Below, piece after piece: positions 62,675-64,000 of a stretch of 64,000 nucleotides of DNA. Position 1 is the first letter of the stretch; every line of letters starts with the position of its first letter. Under the pieces are notes generated by a model. The model was given only the letters and a program-made list of their open reading frames with translations, was not told the DNA's origin and did no database searches. The position numbers were made by a program, and so were the translations under genes. Origin of the DNA: Usitatibacter palustris (lineage in GTDB: Bacteria > Pseudomonadota > Gammaproteobacteria > Burkholderiales > Usitatibacteraceae); assembly GCF_013003985.1 (NCBI RefSeq), contig NZ_CP053073.1, positions 868,001-932,000 of the forward strand, written 5' to 3'.

Positions 62675-62779
62675 AAATAAGTGGGGTCAGACTCGACTTA
62701 ATTTAATTCTGTGGATAACTGGGGTCAGGCTCCAGTTATCCACAGAATTAAATTAAGTCGAGTCTGACCCCACTTATTT
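62675..62779. repeat. 105-bp palindromic element, second full copy
   Basis: Two perfect 48-bp arms flank a 9-base loop (GGTCAGGCT). The outer 29 bases match the copy at 40196; the inner part differs in a few places (AATTCTGTGG here, GATTCTGGGG there), but both arms changed together, so the pairing is kept. It begins one base after the patatin gene stop, and the DUF2007 stop codon on the other strand (62774-62776) is inside it. Confidence 0.93.
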
Positions 62780-63073
62780 CCCGCAGGACCAGCACAGCTC
62801 GAACGAGCCGGGGTTCTCCTCGCCGCACGCGTCGCAATTCCACGGCGATGCGTTGGCGTTCAGCTTGAGGTAATCGTCGATCATCAGGCGCGCGCGCTCG
62901 GCGTGCCCGGGGTCCTCGACCCAGAGCTGCGGCGTGGCCTGGTCGGGCGGCAGTTCCCCGGCGATGCTCGAGGCGTTCGCGTTGAGGATGCGCGCGCGAA
63001 TCCCGCCGACCGCGAGGCGGTCGGCGAGAAGCTGCGCTTCGGGAAGGTTTGCGGCGGAGAAGACGCGCTTCAG
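62774..63073 (-). CDS. DUF2007 protein with C-terminal zinc ribbon, CTG start
   Basis: 99 residues. KRVFSAANLPEAQLLADRL, GIRARILNANASSIAGELP and PQLWVEDPGHAERA are the DUF2007 fold (putative signal-transducing domain); CDACG at 80-84 and CWSCG at 94-98 form a zinc ribbon. No ATG, GTG or TTG precedes the domain in frame. The only fitting start is CTG at 63073, which overlaps the stop of the upstream gene as CTGA, like the ATGA overlaps elsewhere in the window. The TAA stop is supplied by the palindromic element. Confidence 0.72.
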   Translation of the reverse strand: MKRVFSAANLPEAQLLADRLAVGGIRARILNANASSIAGELPPDQATPQLWVEDPGHAERARLMIDDYLKLNANASPWNCDACGEENPGSFELCWSCGK

Positions 63074-64000
63074 AAGCGAATCGCGACCGAGGCGGTGAAG
63101 CCTTCCTCGGACTGGCCTTCGCGCTTCGCGACGTTGTAGTACGCGATGCCCAGCGCGCCCCAGGAGAACTGGCCCGTCACGCCTACGTTGCTCGTGATGA
63201 AGCTCGTGTCCGGCTGGTAGCCCGGCAGGTCGTAGCCGTTGTTCGTGGCCATCGAGACCGGCGTCGCGCTCATGAAGCGCTCGTCGTCACGGCGTTCCTT
63301 GTCGACCGTCACGCGCACCCACGGCGTCCAGCGGCCGAGGGTGATCGAGGCGCGGCCACCGGCGCTCCACACCTCGGAGCGGCGCTTGAACGCGCCGTAG
63401 CGCAGGTTGGCCGAGCCCGCGCCGGTTTCCTCGAAGCCGTTCATGTCGACGTTCTGGATCATCACGCTCGCGACCGGGCCGATCGAGAACTTGTCGAGCT
63501 GGAAGTCGTAGCCACCGCCGACGTAGGCCGACGTGTTGGTTCCTTCGGTGCTGGCCGTCGTCGTGCGCACGACGTTGCCGATGTTGAACTGGCGGCGAAT
63601 GTCGTTCCATTCGATGTCGCCGTACGTGAGCGCGGCATCGAAGAACAGGCCGTCGAGGCGCACGCCGCCGAGGACCGAGATCGCGTTCTCGCGCGTGCGG
63701 TAGTTGCCGGCGCTGTTGCCGAAGCTCGCCTTCGCTTCGTTGCGGCCGGCGGCGAGGCCGAGGGTCAGCGTCTCCGAGGCGCGAACCGTCACGCCACCGG
63801 TGACGGCACGCACGTCGTTGCCCACACCCACGACGCCGCGGCTGGGATCGATGTCGTATTCGCCATCGACCGCTGAACCGAAGATCGTCCACTGGCCCTG
63901 AGCTGCCGCCTGGCCGGTGGTGATGCCGTCGCGCAGCGAGCGGACATGCGCGTTACGCGCACCGAGTGCCGATTCGGGCAGCAGCGTCATCTGCACCGGG
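63070..64000 (-). CDS. autotransporter-type outer-membrane beta-barrel, C-terminal part
   Basis: At least 310 residues, open at the right edge. Alternating-hydrophobicity strands (VRAVTGGVTVRASETLTLGLAAGRN, AISVLGGVRLDGLFFDAALTYGDI, TSAYVGGGYDFQLDKFSIGPVAS), and a final Phe (SVAIRF), match the C-terminal autotransporter domain. The passenger lies outside the window, so its role is unknown. It overlaps the DUF2007 start by 4 bases. Confidence 0.85.
   Translation of the reverse strand, partial: PVQMTLLPESALGARNAHVRSLRDGITTGQAAAQGQWTIFGSAVDGEYDIDPSRGVVGVGNDVRAVTGGVTVRASETLTLGLAAGRNEAKASFGNSAGNYRTRENAISVLGGVRLDGLFFDAALTYGDIEWNDIRRQFNIGNVVRTTTASTEGTNTSAYVGGGYDFQLDKFSIGPVASVMIQNVDMNGFEETGAGSANLRYGAFKRRSEVWSAGGRASITLGRWTPWVRVTVDKERRDDERFMSATPVSMATNNGYDLPGYQPDTSFITSNVGVTGQFSWGALGIAYYNVAKREGQSEEGFTASVAIRF

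Follow-up and report, generated by a model that had tools for sequence, protein, structure and literature searches.

The subject of this analysis is a short gene on the reverse strand of a 64,000-nucleotide stretch of the Usitatibacter palustris genome (contig NZ_CP053073.1, positions 868,001 to 932,000; hereafter the ‘window’, numbered from its first letter), which encodes a protein of the DUF2007 family and appears to start with CTG, at the point where it meets the autotransporter gene lying upstream (Table 1). The two genes are co-directed and their stop and start codons share bases: the junction reads ATT CGC TTC TGA, such that the C of TTC and the TG of the stop together form CTG, followed by AAG CGC GTC TTC. 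Of the 71 codons lying between the in-frame TGA (63289) and the CTG, not one is ATG, GTG or TTG. The first standard start inside the gene is an ATG at codon 64 (62884), which would leave no DUF2007 domain because, in the structural model described below, this codon sits in the last helix; the gene thus has no usable in-frame standard start. An initial annotation, made from the sequence alone, had claimed CTG as the only possible start of the gene, with the CTG at 63073 supplying the family N-terminus within a CTGA overlap, and had called such a gene easy to miss, all of which holds. The range it gave, 62774-63076, is correct at 62774 but takes in one surplus upstream codon (CTT) at its other end, the coding stretch being 62774-63073.

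Table 1. Features at the DUF2007 locus (positions within the window)
Feature	Position	Strand	Basis or remark
DUF2007 gene with C-terminal zinc-ribbon-like segment	62774..63073	-	99 codons + stop, CTG start
CTG, inferred start codon	63071..63073	-	no standard alternative; relatives
CTGA, 4-nt stop/start overlap	63070..63073	-	upstream stop TGA = 63072-63070
Nearest upstream in-frame stop, TGA	63287..63289	-	no ATG/GTG/TTG from there to CTG
3' part of the upstream gene, with autotransporter beta-domain and the end AIRF-TGA	63070..64000	-	PF03797, 113 bits
Zinc-ribbon-like cysteines C80, C83, C94, C97	62783..62836	-	sequence
105-bp palindromic multi-copy repeat	62675..62779	.	gives last codon (AAA) + stop (TAA) of DUF2007 gene

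The DUF2007 protein and its surroundings

The gene is present as a single copy in this genome. Residues 2-65 of its product match DUF2007 (PF09413) at 30.5 bits against a Pfam gathering cut-off of 25.7, and the protein resembles the family over the whole domain, including the conserved N-terminus xKRV..A.NLPEA, whilst differing from it in the CTG start and in a C-terminal RanBP2-like zinc ribbon. As the match of this C-terminal segment to DUF7577 (PF24463; 26.8 bits) falls just under the cut-off of 28, and all four cysteines are present, we call it zinc-ribbon-like only; it fits the RanBP2-type pattern W-x-C-x2-C-x3-N-x6-C-x2-C and gives short Foldseek matches to NUP358/RanBP2 fingers.

An AlphaFold2 model from two sequences (predicted local distance difference test, pLDDT, 80.8; predicted template modelling score, pTM, 0.63) places the first strand at residues 2-6, directly after the CTG codon, and the last helix at residues 55-73. 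Sequence searches of the PDB returned no useful relatives, and Foldseek found no match to the model at E <= 0.001. The best hit was to the cytosolic domain of the rhomboid protease from E. coli (2lep; E 0.098, TM-score 0.81 normalised to target length), too weak a match for a function to be assigned from the fold.

The autotransporter gene runs past the window edge, as a 638-codon open frame in L033. At its other end the DUF2007 gene finishes inside the palindromic repeat, which has 48-nt perfect arms and recurs 15 more times in the genome at near full length (82-99% identity), with diverged relatives in two other genomes of the genus (G002 and G004); the window gene is shorter at its C-terminus than its relatives, one arm of the repeat supplying its end. 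A gene combining patatin and Omp85-type domains (PF01734, PF01103; 60409-62673, plus strand) converges on it.

Relatives and origins of the CTGA junction

Protein searches gave matches in 25 of 28 genomes of the family and in 94 of 300 drawn from the order; one gene per genome was compared in 109 of the 111 matching genomes, the weak matches in G069 and G274 being dropped. A search of contigs yielded a single locus, L031, whose start region is identical to that of G003. At the start position of the 109 genes we find ATG in 81, GTG in 14, CTG in seven and TTG in three; the alignment stops short of this position in the remaining four, each of which has a standard start nearby. Each of the seven CTG genes overlaps a long open frame through CTGA and lacks a standard start between codons -12 and +6, and CTG occupies the start position in none of the other 102. 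Two findings set the observation apart from chance: the protein shows 62-66% identity to its counterparts in same-genus genomes, and in the seven of 109 relatives with CTG at this position it always comes with the same overlap. The initial annotation had proposed the start codon of orthologues as a check, and the answer favours it: CTG in five of the six genus genomes and, independently, in two of a sister genus, always at CTGA. An identical junction in five genomes also rules out sequencing error.

Within the genus of the window the autotransporter precedes the DUF2007 gene in all six genomes. It ends F-TGA in the CTGA overlap in five (G000, G002, G003, G004 and G005), and in the sixth, G001, it ends F-TAG, 302 nt ahead of an ATG-started DUF2007 gene. 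In G005 an in-frame stop lies just 12 codons upstream of the CTG, so that upstream starts are closed off there; a standard start further upstream is thus ruled out in that genome, as it is in the window, where none lies between the in-frame stop and the CTG. Four genomes, belonging to the sister genus or to another genus (G007, G020, G010 and G008), have the autotransporter followed by a spacer and an ATG or GTG. The two CTG genes of the sister genus (G012 and G022) follow a different gene, of the Kinase-PPPase family (PF03618), which ends RRVY-TGA; G018 and G016 have this same neighbour ending TAT TGA, with 44-59 nt from stop to an ATG start. Several of the spacers carry a GC-rich, terminator-type hairpin in their sequence. 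Taken together, the comparison indicates that the CTGA/CTG arrangement arose at least twice, after two different upstream genes.

As G001 groups with CTG genomes, and its DUF2007 gene follows a separately inserted gene, a regained ATG looks the simpler history, parallel deletions in the CTG genomes being possible too; a regained ATG would require a working gene beforehand. The grouping is with G003 and G005 in the autotransporter tree (support 99/98) and with G003 in the short DUF2007 tree (88/92). The inserted gene, of 92 codons and with no Pfam match, lies on the opposite strand (L038:2166-2441, minus), its stop overlapping that of the autotransporter (CTAG); its homologues in 10 other genomes are located elsewhere. 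The species markers RpoB and GroEL are absent from G001 or in pieces.

Selection and initiation signals

Loss of the start along with the spacer could have left nothing but an untranslated, decaying remnant, as might be expected of a gene with neither a standard start nor a Shine-Dalgarno (SD) site, whose window copy has had its C-terminus replaced by a repeat, and whose CUG is generally weak as a start (PMC13068326). Against this, the frame is open in all seven CTG copies (one of which ends at a contig end), the four cysteines are kept in all six complete ones, and the gene has been retained in five species of one genus. Estimates of the ratio of non-synonymous to synonymous substitution rates (dN/dS), rough because the pairs are saturated, are 0.17-0.41 in the seven within-genus pairs computed in which both genes have CTG; equally rough values are 0.08 for G012/G022 and 0.17-0.18 for the comparison pairs G001/G003 and G018/G016. 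Substitutions pile up at the third codon position in all eight CTG pairs tested (Fisher p from 8e-3 to 6e-7), and this bias extends to the second origin, with two changes at positions 1 and 2 and eight at position 3 between G012 and G022. This pattern shows purifying selection on the CTG-started proteins, and we regard a decaying remnant as decidedly unlikely.

Pairing to the anti-SD sequence over the 22 nt before the CTG ranges from -1.8 to -5.5 kcal/mol in the seven CTG genes, compared with medians of -5.6 for 52 ATGA overlap genes and -4.7 for 370 intragenic controls. All seven lie within the intragenic range, and so lack the SD site that is typical of coupled pairs, if not universal among them. 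This bears on a second alternative, in which the CTG would be used without coupling, through independent 30S initiation or on a leaderless transcript whose promoter lies within the autotransporter gene. CTG is indeed a functional, though weaker, start in E. coli (in work cited by PMC13068326), but with no SD site, and with CTG confined to stop overlaps, we hold uncoupled use to be decidedly unlikely. A third, in which a -1 slip at the upstream stop produces a fusion of the upstream protein to DUF2007, is very improbable: the junction sequence contains no slippery heptamer, the two upstream partners are unrelated (an outer-membrane autotransporter and a Kinase-PPPase-type regulator), the DUF2007 protein is made alone in relatives with a spacer and, since outer-membrane barrels need a C-terminal Phe, fusion would bury that of the autotransporter.

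TTC accounts for 93% of the 4,951 Phe codons counted, and the persistence of CTG over TTG at the junction is therefore no evidence of selection for CTG.

Other CTGA junctions

Junctions were scanned in 864 kb of the window genome (~22%; the window and 40 further stretches), with home-made gene calling. Among 725 same-strand neighbours there are 95 ATGA, 46 GTGA, 14 TTGA and 44 CTGA junctions. A standard start is found at the next codon in 18 of the CTGA cases, within +2 to +9 in another 18 and only elsewhere between -20 and +25 in seven; the single one with none in that interval is the DUF2007 gene. Two of those seven look like CTG starts, a CHASE2-SpoIIE phosphatase gene and miaA, such that the rarity ascribed to the DUF2007 start in the initial annotation has to be tempered: one, perhaps two, further genes of the same genome resemble it.

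The CHASE2-SpoIIE gene (PF05226, PF07228; L198:13825-15870, minus strand; genome position 3615870) follows an MBL-fold hydrolase gene (PF12706) through a CTGA overlap. An in-frame CTG stands at this overlap in 16 of the 17 family genomes that have the gene (the exception being G024), eight of which have no standard start in codons -40 to +21. Beyond the family, where 26 order loci out of 34 matches were compared, the MBL gene adjoins in 18, with TTGA in eight, GTGA in four, CTGA in three (which offer a standard start as well) and no in-frame NTGA overlap in three. Unlike the DUF2007 gene, the CHASE2-SpoIIE gene has an SD-like GGAG (-5.6 to -9.9 kcal/mol in the 16). Within the family its junction base is always C, even though 15 of the 16 have a four-fold degenerate codon there in the upstream gene; as a control, among the 66 four-fold columns of the MBL gene that can be compared, just one is all C, which favours selection. 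Against this, G024 has C there too, though its CHASE2 gene is out of frame, and last codons before TGA end most often in C (67 of 168). Selection for the C is suggestive only.

The miaA gene (PF01715; L265:9328-10269, minus strand) has CTGA in the window genome only (one of 25 family loci), with GTGA in G003 and G001. In the window genome it seems to start at the CTG of the overlap, an in-frame ATG at -17 being another possible start.

Discussion

Synthesising these observations, we consider it likely that the DUF2007 gene is real and starts at CTG, that loss of a spacer fused its start to the upstream stop, and that ribosomes now reach it by termination-reinitiation on CUG. In its ancestral form the gene would have been preceded by a spacer and have begun with ATG or GTG. 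The spacer was probably deleted between the upstream TGA and a TGA within the ‘xTG A..’ of the start, an event that would yield this junction since any xTG followed by A contains TGA. A single TGA would then serve both genes, with the last base of the upstream final codon becoming the first base of the new start codon; as this final codon is Phe (TTY) or Tyr (TAY), ATG and GTG are impossible if both proteins are kept, leaving only CTG or TTG. We predict that a ribosome terminating at the TGA shifts upstream by one base and restarts on CUG using initiator tRNA, so that the strict overlap takes the place of a good start codon and an SD site; initiation at the CTG and its coupling to upstream termination offer the most economical account of a gene that has neither. 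The product would be an ~11 kDa, probably cytosolic and zinc-binding protein, made in small amounts set by translation of the autotransporter.

Several points weigh against this scheme. The seven CTG cases amount to only two secure origins; in-frame standard codons do occur far upstream in G004 (-86) and in G012 and G022 (-294), within the upstream gene; and the dN/dS values, drawn from saturated pairs, are rough. The trees from which the ancestral state of the genus is read are small, with the branching order of G003, G005 and G001 not settled in that of the autotransporter, and the deletions may have been parallel. Finally, the loss of the C-terminal tail of the window protein to the repeat is a mild sign of relaxation.

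More tentatively, and with slightly less than even confidence, we speculate that CTGA might be a regular but overlooked class of start in this family, at which the terminating ribosome delivers itself to a low-output CUG, and that the weak start itself might be selected, as the MBL/CHASE2 CTG persists over four genera though synonymous changes would offer ATG, GTG or TTG in most genomes. If so, gene finders restricted to ATG, GTG and TTG would not see such genes. The DUF2007 case by itself suggests that finders and overlap surveys limited to these codons would miss a small class of real genes. It provides a natural comparison across related genomes, in which a spacer goes with ATG or GTG and a stop overlap with CTG, and so makes testable a long-open point, namely the extent to which the choice of start codon is relaxed by termination-reinitiation. 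It also illustrates how a constraint on the last residue of one protein can dictate the start codon of the next gene.

Gene pairs with four-nucleotide overlaps, and the coupling between their members, are well documented (Huber et al. 2019, PMC6728339; reviewed in PMC12548453), with a shared NTGA and downstream translation expected to depend on upstream termination. The DUF2007 pair differs in its CTG start and missing SD site. A paper on the origins of overlaps defines the 4-nt class as (A|G|T)TGA only (PMC3887535), the main text of PMC6728339 does not contain ‘CTGA’, and we recognised no paper on CTGA-overlap starts in the accessible PMC literature, a scope outside which most subscription journals fall. 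Switches to CUG are very rare, numbering two among 61,358 reconstructed ancestral AUG starts (PMC5622118). PMC13068326 puts the share of Listeria core open reading frames with rare or flexible start codons at <0.3%, and also cites work in which CTG functions in E. coli at a reduced rate. By analogy with such genes, that of the window would have a near-cognate start read by initiator tRNA; it differs from them in that CTG arose on two occasions within a single gene family, and on both a stop overlap restricts the first base to a pyrimidine. Coupling through overlap is thus already known, and the proposed CTG-start version of it, without an SD site, is well supported by the comparison of genomes.
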